A DNA stretch of 64,000 nt from Lysobacteraceae bacterium NML07-0707 (GTDB lineage Bacteria; Pseudomonadota; Gammaproteobacteria; Xanthomonadales; Xanthomonadaceae), in contig NWQT01000025.1 in assembly GCA_002798295.1 (NCBI GenBank), positions 62,001 through 126,000 of the forward strand, written 5' to 3'. Under the pieces are notes generated by a model. It saw only the letters and a list, made by a program, of their open reading frames with translations, searched no databases and was not told the origin of the DNA. How positions within the stretch are numbered: position 1 is the stretch's first letter; each line of letters begins with the position of its first letter. Both the position numbers and the translations under genes were made by a program. Below are positions 15,449-44,611 of the stretch, one piece after another.

Positions 15449-17061
15449 GTAGCGATGTTTGCGATGTCGTCATCCTGGGCGGCGGCCTTGCCGGTCTGAC
15501 CTTGGCACTGCAACTGCGCCAGCAAGATGCCAAGATGCGCATCCGCGTATTGGAGCGCCGCCAACATCCAGTGCCGGAAGCGGCCTTCAAGGTGGGAGAA
15601 TCCACCGTGGAAATCGGCGCGCATTATTTTGCCAATGTATTGGGTCTGCTGCCGCACCTGAAAACGCAGCAGATCCGCAAGTTCGGTTTCCGGTTCTTTT
15701 TCTCCGACCGTCAGGCACATATCGAAAAATGCACCGAGCTGGGTGTCAGCATGCTGCTGCCGACGCCGTCCTGGCAGATTGATCGCGGCCGGTTCGAGAA
15801 CTTTCTGGCTGCGCATGTGCGTGAGTTGGGCATCGAATTCATTGATGGTGCCAGCGTGCGCGAAGTCGTGCTTGCAGACAACGAGGCTCCGCACCGGCTG
15901 CGCTATGCCAAGGGTGATAGCGCGCATGAAGTGGCAGCGCGCTGGGTAGTGGATGCCAGCGGACGTGCGAGTCTTCTCAAGCGCAAACTGGGGCTTGAAA
16001 AAAGTAATGCGCACGATGTCAATTCGGTCTGGTGGCGGGTTCAGGGCTTTGTCGATCCCAATGACTGGACCGATGATGCCGACTGGCTGGCGCGTTGTCA
16101 GCCACCCGAGCGCTGGCGCTCCACTAACCATCTATGCGGCCCTGGGTACTGGGTATGGATGATTCCGCTGGGCTCCAACGCACATTCCATCGGCATTGTC
16201 GCCGATCAGAGCCTGCATCCGCTCGATACCCTCAACAGCCATGAAAAAGCCATGCACTGGCTGTGCCAGCACCAGCCGCAGCTGGCCGGGCTACTTGCGC
16301 GCGAGCAGCATGCGCTACTGGACTTCCGTTTTTTGAAGCATTTCTCCTACGAATGTCAGCAGGTGTTTTCTACCCGGCGCTGGGCATTGACGGGCGAAGC
16401 AGGTTATTTTGCTGATCCGTTCTATTCGCCAGGCAGCGATTTCATTGCCATTAGCAATACCTATATCACCGAGCTGATCCGGCTTGAACGTGCCGGTGAA
16501 TCCATCGGCCTGCATGTGACCCTGTTTGAGCAGCTTTATCGCGGCTTCTACGACAACACCATGTCGCTGTATCTGGGGCAGTACCGCCTGTTTGGCAATG
16601 CCGAAGTGATGCCGGTGAAAGTCATCTGGGACTACAGTTTCTACTGGGCCTTGCTGGCGCCGTTGTTCATCTCCGGGCGCATTGCTGATATCCATGTGCT
16701 TTCGCGATTGCGTGCCGATATGGAATATGCCGCCGCACTCAATACCGCCATGCAACCGTTGCTGCGGCAATGGGGCGAGCATTCGGGCTATGGCACACCG
16801 GAGGATGGCCGCCTGCTGGATCAATACCGGATCGGCTGGTTCCACGAGCTCAACCGCGCGTTGGGTGATGTGCTCGATGATGAAGCCTTCATTGCAAAGG
16901 TGCATGCCAACTGCAAATTGCTGGCACAGCTGGCGCTGGAAATCCTCACGCAAGTAAAACAGCGCTGCCCGCATGCCGATGTGCAACCGCTGCTTGAGCT
17001 TGTGCAGGATGTGACCATGACCAACCCGCCAATGCTCGGCGCAGAGTGGTTTCCGGGCTAA
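15445..17061 (+). CDS. FAD-dependent oxidoreductase of the tryptophan-halogenase family
   Basis: A 538-residue flavoprotein. The dinucleotide motif is VVILGGGLAGLTLALQLR at residues 9-26, followed by AFKVGESTVEIG near 50 (the GES motif of the halogenase group) and PGYWVWMIPLG, a close version of the GWxWxIP signature of flavin halogenases. Length also fits halogenases. Xanthomonadins carry bromine, so a tailoring halogenase here would make sense; a monooxygenase or desaturase role is the alternative because the Trp in GW is replaced by Tyr. It is the last gene of the rightward operon and converges with the ketoreductase, leaving only eight bases between the stops. Confidence 0.82.
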   Translation: MSSDVCDVVILGGGLAGLTLALQLRQQDAKMRIRVLERRQHPVPEAAFKVGESTVEIGAHYFANVLGLLPHLKTQQIRKFGFRFFFSDRQAHIEKCTELGVSMLLPTPSWQIDRGRFENFLAAHVRELGIEFIDGASVREVVLADNEAPHRLRYAKGDSAHEVAARWVVDASGRASLLKRKLGLEKSNAHDVNSVWWRVQGFVDPNDWTDDADWLARCQPPERWRSTNHLCGPGYWVWMIPLGSNAHSIGIVADQSLHPLDTLNSHEKAMHWLCQHQPQLAGLLAREQHALLDFRFLKHFSYECQQVFSTRRWALTGEAGYFADPFYSPGSDFIAISNTYITELIRLERAGESIGLHVTLFEQLYRGFYDNTMSLYLGQYRLFGNAEVMPVKVIWDYSFYWALLAPLFISGRIADIHVLSRLRADMEYAAALNTAMQPLLRQWGEHSGYGTPEDGRLLDQYRIGWFHELNRALGDVLDDEAFIAKVHANCKLLAQLALEILTQVKQRCPHADVQPLLELVQDVTMTNPPMLGAEWFPG

Positions 17062-41229: not shown

Positions 41230-41715
41230 TCACGCTCCCCACAACACCGGCTTGTTCACCATCAGATAGTAAATCCCCAGCATGGCGATAAAGGCGGGGT
41301 AGCCAAGGGCTTCCCAAAGCTGTGCGTAGCGGAAGTATTTTTGTGGCAGTGCTTCGCCATTTTTCAGCGCGTCATCGGTCATGCGTGACATGCGGATTTG
41401 CAGCCAGACCACCGGCAGCCAGCACAGCCCGGCAATGAGGTAGAGGATGAGGCTTGCCAATATCCACGGCGTATCCCAAGACAGCCCCCAGCCGGTGAGA
41501 TACATCAGGTAAAACCCGCTGATGGGTTGCACGATGCCGGCGGGGGTGGTGAACCACCAATCGGCACGCACTACCAGTCGGGTGACGACGGCCTGGGCGG
41601 CGAGGCTGCCGCTGCGGTTGGCAAAAAACATGTAGAACGCCGAGCCAAAGCCGGTGCCAACCAGCAGCACGCTGCTGAGGATATGCAGCCATTTGATGAT
41701 GAGATAGGTGTTCAT
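41230..41715 (-). CDS. DUF2269 family integral membrane protein
   Basis: A 161-residue protein with four likely membrane helices: LIIKWLHILSSVLLVGTGFG at the start, VQPISGFYLMYLTGWGL, WILASLILYLIAGLCWLPVV, and PAFIAMLGIYYLMV at the end. The His and Trp of IKWLHILSS are typical of DUF2269. It is the last gene of the GbsR-linked operon and starts within the stop of the DoxX-like gene (ATGA). No reaction is known. The long frame upstream (from 42030) is not family-like. Confidence 0.85.
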   Translation of the reverse strand: MNTYLIIKWLHILSSVLLVGTGFGSAFYMFFANRSGSLAAQAVVTRLVVRADWWFTTPAGIVQPISGFYLMYLTGWGLSWDTPWILASLILYLIAGLCWLPVVWLQIRMSRMTDDALKNGEALPQKYFRYAQLWEALGYPAFIAMLGIYYLMVNKPVLWGA

Positions 41716-42077
41716 GACGAGCGCCTGGCAAGGATATGCAGGATGGCGAGAATTGGCAGGTTCTTGCCCAGCGGCTGCAAGGGGTGCAGCCACAGATTTG
41801 GCGAAAGAACCGAGGCGGTGAGCGTGAGTGCGATAACGGCGACCATGGAAACTTGGTAGCTGATGCGGCGTGGCCAGAACATCAGCAGCAAGGCAAGCAG
41901 CAGATCGAGCGCAACGCCTGCGGCAATCAGGCTGTGTGCCAATGGCACGGACTGGATACCGCCTGCCTGCAGCAAGGTCAGGCTCTGTCCATTCCATTCC
42001 ACAAGGCTGGTGACGATGGTCAGCCACCACACGGCAATCAGGCTATGGCGCAACAGCTTCAGGTGTTTCTCGCTCAT
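41712..42077 (-). CDS. DoxX-like family small membrane protein
   Basis: A 121-residue membrane protein: HSLIAVWWLTIVTSLVEW, IAAGVALDLLLALLLMFWP and VSMVAVIALTLTASVLSP are its helices, with NLWLHPLQPLGKNLPILAIL the DoxX-like ending. DoxX-like partners of SDR proteins occur often and are sometimes fused with them. It overlaps the SDR gene by four bases on one side and the DUF2269 gene by four on the other. Confidence 0.8.
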   Translation of the reverse strand: MSEKHLKLLRHSLIAVWWLTIVTSLVEWNGQSLTLLQAGGIQSVPLAHSLIAAGVALDLLLALLLMFWPRRISYQVSMVAVIALTLTASVLSPNLWLHPLQPLGKNLPILAILHILARRSS

Positions 42078-42964
42078 GCGCTTGGCTCCATGGCGGCGGC
42101 CAGAAAATCATCGGGCGCACAGGGCGGGCGTTGCAGCAGACGGGCAAGATGCCCGGTCTCGCTGCAGTTGTCACGCGCCAGCAGCTGCAAGGCTTCGCTG
42201 AACAAGGGCGAGAGAGGCAGCGCATCGCCGATGCGCGCAGCGGCATAAGTCACTGCATCAGGCAATGGCAGCACCATGGCTGGTATCGTTTTGCCGAGCT
42301 GCTGGCGCAGGCAGGCGATGTATTCACCCATGCCGAGCGCCTGCGAGCCTGCCAGCTCCAGCACGCCGGTATCGTGGTTGTCTTTCAGCAAGCGGCTACA
42401 GACTTCGGCCAGCTCCCACACCGCCAATGGCTGTACCCGGGCGCGAATCACCGCCTTGGGGAGTAACAGCACCGGCAGCCGTGCCAGCTGCAGAAACAGC
42501 CGAGTGCTATCGCCATCCATGCCAAATACCAGACTGGGGCGCAGTACGACGCCATCGAGCTGCCCTTGTGCGCCAAGACCGAGCAAATGCTCATCCGCTG
42601 AGCGTTTGCTTCTGGAATAGGCGGTATCGCCCTCGGCCACGCCCAGTGCAGAGACTTGCACTACGCGGCGGATACCCAGCTGCGCACAAGCGTCGAACAG
42701 CGCACGCGGCGCGGCATCGTGAATTGCCGCCATCGGCTGGCTTGGACGGTCGCGCAAGATGCCGACCGCATTGATGACCGCATCCATGCCATGCAGTGCA
42801 TCCAGCCAGTGCCCGGCAGTGGTGGCACGGCGAAAGTCGATGCGGGCTTCCCCGTGCCGACTTGCGGTTTTTACCCGCCAGCCAGCTTGCAGCAAGCGCG
42901 CATGGATATGACGGCCAATAAAGCCATTGGCGCCACAGAGTAGTACCGTGGGGCTATGCATCAT
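42074..42964 (-). CDS. NAD(P)-binding SDR/NmrA-like protein
   Basis: A 296-residue atypical short-chain dehydrogenase with VLLCGANGFIGRHIHARLL as the dinucleotide site. It has no classical YxxxK active site, but YSRSKRSADEHLL sits in that area. The fold resembles NDUFA9-like and NmrA-like proteins that sense or act on NAD(P)H. The ATG at 42964 starts inside the upstream stop (TGATG); the frame begins with a TTG one codon earlier. The substrate is unknown. It is flanked by small membrane proteins, so a membrane redox or quinone link is a guess. Confidence 0.82.
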   Translation of the reverse strand: MMHSPTVLLCGANGFIGRHIHARLLQAGWRVKTASRHGEARIDFRRATTAGHWLDALHGMDAVINAVGILRDRPSQPMAAIHDAAPRALFDACAQLGIRRVVQVSALGVAEGDTAYSRSKRSADEHLLGLGAQGQLDGVVLRPSLVFGMDGDSTRLFLQLARLPVLLLPKAVIRARVQPLAVWELAEVCSRLLKDNHDTGVLELAGSQALGMGEYIACLRQQLGKTIPAMVLPLPDAVTYAAARIGDALPLSPLFSEALQLLARDNCSETGHLARLLQRPPCAPDDFLAAAMEPSA

Positions 42965-43323
42965 CAATGCTCCTGTGGAGCTGGGGGTGGCAAGGGTTTG
43001 GCAGGCAGACGGATGCCGAGCTGCTTCCAGATATGGTGGGCAATCGTGGCAACGCTGATGAATACGCCCCCGCAGACCAGCAGCAATGCGCGATGCAGCG
43101 CATCCAGCAGGCTGGCTTTTTCGGAGAAGTTGCCAAACAGCAGCATCAGGATGAGCGTGCCACTGGCGGCCAGCAGATAAGCGCTGCGCACCCAGAATTC
43201 GGCACCATTGGGCTCGTCATGGCAGAGTCGAGCCAGCACCCGAACAAGAATCGGGCGCAGATAGCGCACGGCAATGATGGGTACGATGATGACGATGGAT
43301 AGCAGAAAAAGCGGGAGATTCAT
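42964..43323 (-). CDS. Small membrane protein, first gene of the GbsR-linked operon
   Basis: A 119-residue protein with three likely helices: LPLFLLSIVIIVPIIAVRYL, VRSAYLLAASGTLILMLLFGNF, and LLLVCGGVFISVATIAHHIW. The tail is Pro-rich. I do not know a named family. It starts 111 bases downstream of the regulator gene stop, and one of the two paired palindromes lies in that gap, 70 bases before its start. Confidence 0.8.
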   Translation of the reverse strand: MNLPLFLLSIVIIVPIIAVRYLRPILVRVLARLCHDEPNGAEFWVRSAYLLAASGTLILMLLFGNFSEKASLLDALHRALLLVCGGVFISVATIAHHIWKQLGIRLPAKPLPPPAPQEH

Positions 43324-43392
43324 GGCAATGCTCCTGGGCGGTGGGAAACGGATTGGGAATAGATGTGTTTCATGATTGGCTGTTGCTACGGT

Positions 43393-43415
43393 AATTTCTG
43401 TTAAAAATGAAATTT
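43393..43415. promoter_or_regulatory. Palindromic operator candidate between GbsR-like gene and its operon
   Basis: AATTTC at 43393-43398 and GAAATT at 43409-43414 form a palindrome with a 10-base spacer. The 23-base site is identical at 20 of 23 positions to 43983-44005. It lies upstream of the membrane-protein operon. Confidence 0.75.
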
Positions 43416-43434
43416 ATGGGCAAAAAACAGCTTG

Positions 43435-43959
43435 TTATTTGTCGCGCACAAAACGCTGGATGCTGGCGCCCAGATGCAGCACTTTCTCCAGTGTCTGTGG
43501 TGAAAGCCGCAGCATCTCATCGCTCCAGCTGCCGATGGTTTCCATGAAACGCAGCGTCTGGTGCAGGCGGTCTTGCGCGCTGGGTGACTGTTCGGCAAAG
43601 TCCTCGCGGCTGACCAGCTCGCGCAGCAGCACGGTAGTGGGGTCGAACTCACGCTCCTTGCGGCCACGCACGATGATGCGGAACAACTCCCAGACATCGC
43701 CGGAAGTTTCAAAGTAATCGCGCCGGTCGCCGAAGATTTGCGTGGTGCGGATCAGCTTCCAGTTCAGCAGCTCCTTGAGGCTGTTGCTGACATTGGAGCG
43801 CGCCACGCCCAGGGTCTGGGTGATGGCCTCGGCATGCAGCGGCTGACCGTGAATGAACAGCAGTGCATGGATTTGCGCCACGGTACGGTTAACCCCCCAG
43901 GCGGAGCCCATCTCTCCCCAGTGGACAATAAAGCGGCGTTCGATATCAGTCAGTTGCAT
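43435..43959 (-). CDS. GbsR/MarR family transcriptional regulator
   Basis: A 174-residue winged-helix regulator: RRFIVHWGEMGSAWGVNRTVAQIHALLF, then the recognition region AEAITQTLGVARSNVSNSLK, and the wing RTTQIFGDRRDYFET, all as in the GbsR group (choline or osmotic regulators in Bacillus, others unknown). A C-terminal helical region would dimerise. Two copies of a 23-base palindrome flank the gene, one before it and one between it and the downstream operon. Autoregulation and control of that operon are inferred. Confidence 0.9.
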   Translation of the reverse strand: MQLTDIERRFIVHWGEMGSAWGVNRTVAQIHALLFIHGQPLHAEAITQTLGVARSNVSNSLKELLNWKLIRTTQIFGDRRDYFETSGDVWELFRIIVRGRKEREFDPTTVLLRELVSREDFAEQSPSAQDRLHQTLRFMETIGSWSDEMLRLSPQTLEKVLHLGASIQRFVRDK

Positions 43960-43982
43960 GGCGCAGATAATACATTTGCAGA

Positions 43983-44005
43983 AATTTCTGTCAATAGTGA
44001 AATTT
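43983..44005. promoter_or_regulatory. Palindromic operator candidate upstream of GbsR-like gene
   Basis: AATTTC at 43983-43988 and GAAATT at 43999-44004 with a 10-base spacer, 20/23 identical to 43393-43415. It lies 24-46 bases before the regulator start and also in the gap to the divergent lipoprotein gene, so it could act on both. Confidence 0.78.
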
Positions 44006-44092
44006 GCAAGTCGATTCTGCTCTGGCTATCGTCATGCAAACAGGTGAGCGTTTGGCTTGCACAAATTTTCATCCATCAAACAGGAGACAAGG

Positions 44093-44611
44093 ATGCGTGT
44101 GGTTACAGTTCCCCTGATGCTGGCAGCCACGCTGCTGCTTGCCGGTTGTCCGCTGGGCAATAAACCCGAATCCTCTGCAACCGCGGAAAAGCCATCACCC
44201 AAGGCGACGGAAGTCTCCGCGCAGGCAGACACTGAAGTGGATGCAGCAGCGCAGGCCGTAGAGCCGGCTTGCGATTGTGCAGGGCAAGCGGCCGATGCCA
44301 TCGCCGTTGCCGAAGTTCCGGCCAGGTTTCGTGGCGACTGGAGTTACAAATGCCTCAAACCCGGCGAATACGATGACAGTAGTATGACCATTTCCGCAGA
44401 TACGATTGCCTTCACCGGGAGCATGGGCAATATCAAGGCGGTGGTGCTGAACGGTGATAACGAGCTGGCCATCATTGCCGACATGCCTGATGAGGGAAAG
44501 CAGTGGCTTACTTACTGGCGCTTTGAACTATCCGCAGATGGCGAGGAGCTGATGGATGTCACCGACGATGACAATTATTTCCTGCGCCGCAGGTGCAAAG
44601 GCGTGGGCTGA
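44093..44611 (+). CDS. Hypothetical lipoprotein, divergent from the GbsR-like regulator
   Basis: A 172-residue protein with a lipobox (MLAATLLLAGCPLG), an Ala/Glu/Lys-rich spacer (residues 25-75) with low complexity, and a C-terminal domain holding ACDCAGQA, RFRGDWSYKCLKPGEYDDSS, and NYFLRRRCKG with Cys pairs that may form disulfides. I know no named family. The ATG at 44093 follows AGGAGACAAGG; the longer frame upstream ends with the same lipobox. Facing the regulator across a shared operator, it may belong to the same regulon. Confidence 0.75.
   Translation: MRVVTVPLMLAATLLLAGCPLGNKPESSATAEKPSPKATEVSAQADTEVDAAAQAVEPACDCAGQAADAIAVAEVPARFRGDWSYKCLKPGEYDDSSMTISADTIAFTGSMGNIKAVVLNGDNELAIIADMPDEGKQWLTYWRFELSADGEELMDVTDDDNYFLRRRCKGVG

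Follow-up and report, generated by a model that had tools for sequence, protein, structure and literature searches.

Two nearly identical palindromes lie on either side of a gene for a GbsR-type regulator in a stretch of 64,000 nucleotides (the window) from Lysobacteraceae bacterium NML07-0707 (contig NWQT01000025.1, positions 62,001 to 126,000). The question raised by this locus is whether the two sites are operators through which the regulator controls its own gene and the genes that follow it. Judged from sequence comparison, the palindromes are almost certainly operators of the regulator encoded between them. This reading builds on observed features, namely the two sites, how rare and how conserved they are, how they are linked to the regulator gene, and a promoter match. 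The full model, to which a probability of about 0.86 is assigned, is that a dimer of the regulator at both sites represses both the regulator gene and the operon and that a signal induces the two together. Binding, repression, and transcript starts at the two sites (Table 1) are inferred, and the releasing signal would be a small molecule or a redox change.

Table 1. Positions of the features discussed, numbered from the first base of the window
Feature	Position	Strand	Basis
Upstream operator (UP), putatively autoregulatory; minus strand AAATTTCACTATTGACAGAAATT	43983-44005	-	Sequence, rarity, conservation, layout of CydE footprint
-35 hexamer TTGACA of regulator promoter, inside UP operator	43989-43994	-	Promoter scan; conservation
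-10 hexamer TATTAT of regulator promoter, 7 nt before ATG	43967-43972	-	Promoter scan
GbsR-type MarR-family regulator gene, 174 aa	43435-43959	-	Pfam MarR_2; phmmer to 1ku9
T6G tract (TTTTTTG on minus strand) preceding DN operator	43421-43427	-	T run kept before 80 downstream sites
Candidate -35 TTGCCC of operon promoter; TTG from T6G tract	43418-43423	-	Sequence; conservation
Downstream operator (DN) before membrane operon; minus strand AAATTTCATTTTTAACAGAAATT	43393-43415	-	Sequence, rarity, conservation
Candidate -10 AGAAAT of operon promoter, within DN operator	43394-43399	-	Read from sequence; conservation
mem119, gene for a small putative membrane protein (by eye) of 119 aa without Pfam match, first operon gene here	42964-43323	-	At some loci, homologues lie between regulator and SDR
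NAD(P)-binding SDR/epimerase-like gene	42074-42967	-	Pfam Epimerase, NAD_binding_10; synteny
DoxX_3 membrane protein gene	41712-42077	-	PF13781, 6.5e-16
DUF2269 four-helix membrane protein gene	41230-41718	-	PF10027, 2.5e-61; AlphaFold model
Divergent gene for a putative lipoprotein (labelled by eye; without Pfam match)	44093-44611	+	Linked to cassette in window genus
Candidate -35 TTGCAA of lipoprotein gene, 2 bp overlap with UP operator	44004-44009	+	Read by eye
Candidate -10 TATCGT of lipoprotein gene, spacer 17	44027-44032	+	Read by eye

Two palindromes and their rarity in the genome

The initial annotation had described twin 23-base palindromes, and the sequence confirmed this. The downstream site is AATTTCTGTTAAAAATGAAATTT and the upstream site AATTTCTGTCAATAGTGAAATTT; they are identical at 20 of 23 bases, differ at three positions, and share the layout AATTTC-10-GAAATT. 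Base 43982 is also an A, which extends the upstream palindrome to a 24-base AAATTTC-10-GAAATTT. On the minus strand, the upstream site precedes the regulator gene, with 23 bases separating it from the ATG, and the downstream site lies just beyond the regulator stop codon and ahead of the next minus-strand gene (ATG at 43323). The order on this strand is the upstream site, regulator, downstream site, mem119, SDR/epimerase-like gene, DoxX_3, and DUF2269.

A genome-wide search for the palindrome had been proposed as a check, and its random occurrence throughout the genome as grounds for giving up the claim. The search was carried out over 2,392,057 bases in 54 contigs with the degenerate 22-base pattern AATTTCTGTYAAWARTGAAATT at up to three mismatches and with a reversed control. 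It returned two matches, which are the two palindromes of the window, and the control returned none. The bare core ATTTC-N10-GAAAT occurs exactly five times in the genome, and at up to one mismatch it occurs 52 times versus 12 for the control. Thus, the core by itself is not rare, but the core combined with the inner bases of the operator is. With a weight matrix derived from 149 sites at 78 loci outside the genus of the window, the two window sites scored 30.95 and 27.5 and the other three exact cores scored 15.2, 10.1, and -12.1; the lowest-scoring site of the training set scored 17.5. By eye, one of these three cores falls within a long frame of coding-like appearance, another in open frames whose status is unclear, and the third shortly 5' of a start codon. 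None of them was accepted as part of a wider regulon in this genome, as their scores are far lower. The core near the start codon (contig 27 of the genome, positions 16314-16333), whose inner bases are unlike those of the operator and which has the score of -12.1, is followed by a run of bases resembling restriction sites (XbaI, EcoRI, and NotI, by eye).

Conservation of the site pair at related loci

A comparison of the same interval in related genomes had likewise been proposed, and it was made at 84 loci encoding a regulator of more than 66% identity, six of them rows of the window genus (including the window itself) and 78 from elsewhere, mostly Burkholderiales. A scan of a species-genome collection for the regulator supplied the best 80 of 171 relatives. 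The effective number of loci is smaller than 84, as at least two pairs (L004 and L066, L006 and L029) represent the same contig and L073 and L077 look like one strain. The loci share descent, duplicates included, and no probability was assigned to the co-occurrence.

The pair recurs. The upstream site was found in 81 of the 84 loci, in 59 of them with TTTC exactly at -43 from the ATG, and the three misses (L042, L043, and L048) carry a version with one mismatch at the same place. The downstream site was found in 80 of the 84 loci, at no more than 250 bp from the regulator stop codon in 74 and farther away in six (L030-L034 and L039), where it lies 332-526 bp beyond the stop. In five of these six, one open frame fills nearly all of the intervening stretch. 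The site and its T tract still stand ahead of the next operon genes in all six loci, which suggests that the downstream site goes with the operon rather than with the 3' end of the regulator gene. The downstream site is missing in L043, L054, L064, and L108, and the L054 locus ends soon past the regulator. Outside these two places, only two matches were found in the 598,403 bases of the loci.

The regulator and its relatives

The regulator is placed among the GbsR-type members of the MarR family through its Pfam match and its resemblance to MJ223. The MarR_2 match (residues 24-80, 5.8e-9) marks a winged helix-turn-helix in the N-terminal half, and the best relative of solved structure by sequence is MJ223 (1ku9; phmmer, E 1.6e-9), an archaeal protein of Methanocaldococcus jannaschii that has served as a template for GbsR models (PMC6207618). 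An identity as CudC was ruled out: its score against the CudC model, 29.7 bits, is weak and falls far below the curated cut-off of 218. Three residues of the putative recognition helix, R54, S55, and N56, do not vary among the 43 aligned regulators, which fits half-sites common to them.

Compared to known members of the family, the locus shares some features and lacks others. CydE of Alishewanella sp. WH16-1 is a GbsR-type repressor of cytochrome bd genes that acts at its own promoter; its DNase footprint includes TATTTCAGAAATTTCTGAAAGTTCA, which is TTTC-N10-GAAA, and a second site footprinted with CydE has another sequence (PMC6096048). Both window sites have the footprinted TTTC-N10-GAAA layout, and in both systems the regulator gene adjoins an operon of membrane proteins, with a redox task suggested here. 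The two differ in the target, cytochrome bd for CydE, and in the inner bases of the site, AGAAATTTCT in CydE and TGTNTTGACA in the window. CioR of Chromobacterium violaceum represses its own operon, in which it is co-transcribed with cioAB and which is induced by cyanide (PMC11837568). Its target thus differs from that of the window locus, and no second CioR operator is described in the available part of PMC11837568. The window regulator is unlike GbsR and OpcR of Bacillus subtilis in its target as well, as those proteins govern choline and betaine genes (PMC7396694, PMC6207618).

Membership in the subgroup of CydE and CioR finds support in the operator layout and not in the genes nearby or in the tree. 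The regulator is flanked by mem119, SDR, DoxX_3, DUF2269, and lipoprotein genes instead of cydAB or cioAB, and in a tree of 79 distinct rows (midpoint root, with long-branch warnings) it does not group with the cydA-linked regulators. Fourteen rows of regulators of 38-48% identity, several of them cydA-linked, form a separate clade there with support of 100/100. Among the 38-48% regulators (L014-L028), TTTC-N10-GAAA occurs within 250 bp upstream in 12 of 15, and it was not found in that interval in L015, L027, and L028; a cydA frame lies downstream in all four loci tested by Pfam (L014, L022, L026, and L027). At the loci of regulators of 54-61% identity (L007-L012), the stretch that separates the regulator from a divergent SDR gene (34-36% identity) contains the motif of the upstream site, 77-96 bp upstream of the regulator. 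Among the matches listed from the open-licence literature, no description was found of the regulator branch, its target operon, or the double-operator layout; the branch is apparently undescribed within a known family.

The upstream operator and the regulator promoter

The right half of the upstream site, TTGACAGAAAT, includes the -35 hexamer of a promoter-like sequence. A promoter scan of 42950-44150 gave a single match, TTGACA-16-TATTAT on the minus strand, which agrees with the promoter consensus at 11 of 12 bases and is located at the upstream site. Shuffled sequences average 0.7 matches at the scan threshold, so the weight of this match rests on its conservation. TTGACA is present in all 81 upstream sites found, and the spacer between -35 and -10 is 16 nt in 72 of them. 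The best -10 hexamers have A2 and T6 in all 81 cases, a count that is favored by choosing among three spacings. An operator thus overlaps the promoter of the gene for its own regulator, as expected for autoregulation. A dimer bound here would cover the -35 hexamer and turn the regulator gene off. OpcR of B. subtilis, a member of the same subfamily, likewise overlaps the -35 of its targets (PMC7396694).

The gap between the -10 and the ATG is 7 nt in 59 of the 81 loci. With transcription taken to start about 7 nt past the -10, the regulator mRNA would begin at the ATG, and it is predicted to be leaderless in much of the branch.

The downstream operator and its possible modes of action

At the downstream site, the dimer is proposed to cover the spacer and the -10 of TTGCCC-18-AGAAAT, a promoter for mem119-SDR-DoxX_3-DUF2269, and a signal that frees the repressor would then induce the regulator and the operon together. 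The candidate hexamers agree with the consensus at three of six bases each and were not reported by the promoter scan. The T run ahead of the site is followed by G in 93%, a TTG is present at -11 to -9 in 65 of the 80 downstream sites, and the hexamer 18 nt beyond it is TGAAAT (47) or AGAAAT (25). These conserved elements are presumed to form a weak operon promoter that a dimer could cover.

The T tract ahead of the site points to another possible role. A polymerase coming from the regulator promoter could be halted by the bound dimer with its active centre in the T tract, the transcript would be released, and derepression would permit read-through into the operon. B. subtilis GbsR acts as a roadblock downstream of the transcription start, with half-sites 4 bp apart (PMC7396694); together with the different operator spacing, this indicates that the layout is not uniform in the family. 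Several features of the downstream sites agree with such a role. First, in 73 of the 80 loci the longest T run stops 9 or 10 nt short of the operator core, and in 68 it has at least six T. Second, a perfect hairpin precedes the T run in only 19 of 80 loci by a strict rule (7% of shuffles), and 52 of 80 have a run of at least six T without one. Third, the scan found no strong promoter in the gap between the regulator and the operon. Against this role, the hairpin and T run of the 19 loci would end the regulator transcript, so that the operon would need its own promoter there. Furthermore, 11 of the 80 loci have an ATG 8 nt past the operator core, which would fit transcription beginning immediately beyond the operator; this ATG lies 7 nt past the proposed -10, the gap seen most often at the regulator promoter. 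The conserved TTG and the six loci with an extra 332-526 bp between the regulator and the site also argue against it. Overall, a role confined to halting the polymerase appears unlikely. A combined form is rated as less probable still, in which a two-operator switch would act on DCC1-like/SDR/DoxX_3/DUF2269 as a membrane redox operon, the upstream operator hiding the -35 of a leaderless promoter and the downstream operator being a repressor-dependent release point that stops read-through. Repression of a separate promoter at each site is the preferred reading.

The idea that a terminator fully accounts for the T tract was rejected as a general explanation, given the hairpin counts above and a mean fold z-score of -0.03. 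In the window, the scan of 42950-44150 gave one terminator-like match, which lies inside the regulator gene and is no more than shuffles give, and no known RNA element reached the gathering threshold in 42900-44200. The T run is longer than a -35 element alone requires, and most runs come without a perfect terminator hairpin. A 17-codon minus-strand frame (43320-43373) begins in the leader, and its stop codon overlaps the ATG of the 119-aa gene; its ATG is missing in L006, and the frame is probably a remnant or due to chance.

Linkage of the sites to the regulator

Many transcription factors bind AT-rich palindromes, and the two sites could in principle serve another factor, with their adjacency to the regulator gene being unrelated. 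This reading draws on the fact that binding by the window regulator is deduced from sequence. It was set against the distribution of the motif and the regulator in whole genomes. Among 60 related genomes searched for the regulator, 24 have a homologue. The pattern ATTTCNNTNTTGACAGAAAT was found in 10 of the 60, with one match each, and these are exactly the genomes with a regulator of at least 55% identity. It was not found in the other 50, which include 14 with distant homologues (38-52% at best), and the control gave no match. Motif and regulator therefore co-occur exactly in this set.

A second search covered 32 whole genomes (about 161 Mb), reached through 32 of the 80 loci, with ATTTCNNTNNNNACWGAAAT, a pattern that would miss sites not fitting it. 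It matched in 31 of the 32 genomes, against a single control match in a single genome. The 50 distinct places are all sites of the regulator locus, 28 upstream and 22 downstream, and the regulon thus looks strictly local. Twelve DUF2269 loci were also compared, and for the four cassette genomes the stretches stop short of the operators. At the eight of these loci that come from genomes without the regulator, no TTTC-N10-GAAA was found near DUF2269 in stretches of 2.6-3.5 kb, not all of which reach the operon start. These results, together with the CydE footprint of the same layout (PMC6096048), make a different binding factor very improbable. A chance origin, or one in repeated low-complexity AT-rich sequence, can practically be dismissed: the AT-rich core does recur in the genome, but the full pattern is unique, the held-out matrix sets both sites apart from the remaining exact cores, and loci of other genera have conserved the sites in the same two positions.

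Collectively, the claim of an autoregulated operator pair made by the initial annotation is supported by the recurrence of the sites at orthologous loci, by exact co-occurrence in the 60 genomes, by the absence of other sites in the 32 genomes, and by the CydE footprint.

The proposed target operon

The four genes mem119, SDR, DoxX_3, and DUF2269 are presumed to form one operon. Outside the window genus, 67 of 74 loci have their first ATG or GTG that opens a frame of at least 90 aa at 8-31 nt past the site core (recounted by eye). The first frame after the downstream site has a YYDxxCxxC-like start in 65 of these 74 loci (L030-L108), and two examples are DCC1-like thiol-disulfide oxidoreductases by Pfam (PF04134). 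On the basis of this start and the two examples, a DCC1-like frame appears to head the operon in the 65 loci. No DCC1-like gene follows the downstream site in the window genus, where mem119 comes first instead.

By analogy with CydE and CioR and their cytochrome bd targets, the operon genes may have a redox task in the membrane; this is the weakest step of the explanation. The AlphaFold model of the DUF2269 protein (pLDDT 89.5) has four helices; its fold was discarded as a clue to function, as the best PDB match (E 0.61) amounts to no match. A distant HMM similarity has been described between DUF2269 and DUF989 of the membrane urate oxidase PuuD, and at E 0.15 it is too weak to use (PMC4562309). 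DUF2269 also appears in a transcriptome table (PMC11267869).

The divergent lipoprotein gene and the history of the cassette

The initial annotation had also proposed that the site upstream of the regulator faces the divergent lipoprotein gene. In favor of this proposal, a promoter-like pair abuts the operator, is kept in the genus, and belongs to a gene linked to the cassette. By eye, all six rows of the window genus, from four genomes, have TTGCAA (TTGAAA in one)-17-TATCGT or TATTGT; the DNA past the pair has changed in L006 and L029. Against it, a homologue of the lipoprotein adjoins the regulator only in loci of the window genus. The pair is weak and under the threshold of the promoter scan. 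The lipoprotein gene is a possible third target, weaker than the other two.

The regulators of the window genus nest inside those of Comamonadaceae in the tree (branch 97/86). The nearest are those of Ottowia sp. oral taxon 894, Vandammella, and isolate COT-014, with a weak closer grouping (89/67). The nearest rows of the tree include isolates with oral names. In the genus of the window, a DUF2269 gene scored above the cut-off in 4 of 17 genomes, and these are the same four that have the regulator at no less than 95% identity. The genes from DUF2269 through to the lipoprotein gene (about 41237-44611) form a block that has stayed together in the three relatives compared, with differing neighbours on one side or the other. 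These sequence comparisons suggest that the cassette (41230-44611) was gained as a unit from a Comamonadaceae-like donor. A regulator form of 57-61% identity is found in one genome of the genus and in some other Lysobacteraceae. A search for a mobile element carrying the cassette found no tRNA gene in the stretches of the three relatives. A gene resembling a zeta-toxin-type kinase (label by eye) lies near the cassette in one genome (G012, L163:5111-6037).

Significance

Autorepression is in itself ordinary, and what the locus offers is a well-supported local circuit in an apparently undescribed branch of regulators. For this GbsR-type branch, found in Burkholderiales and some Lysobacteraceae, the analysis supplies an operator that can be tested, a regulon confined to one locus, and a target operon. 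The TTTC-N10-GAAA half-sites are common to this branch and the CydE group, and the inner bases differ between them. The inducing signal would give a handle on what DUF2269 does.
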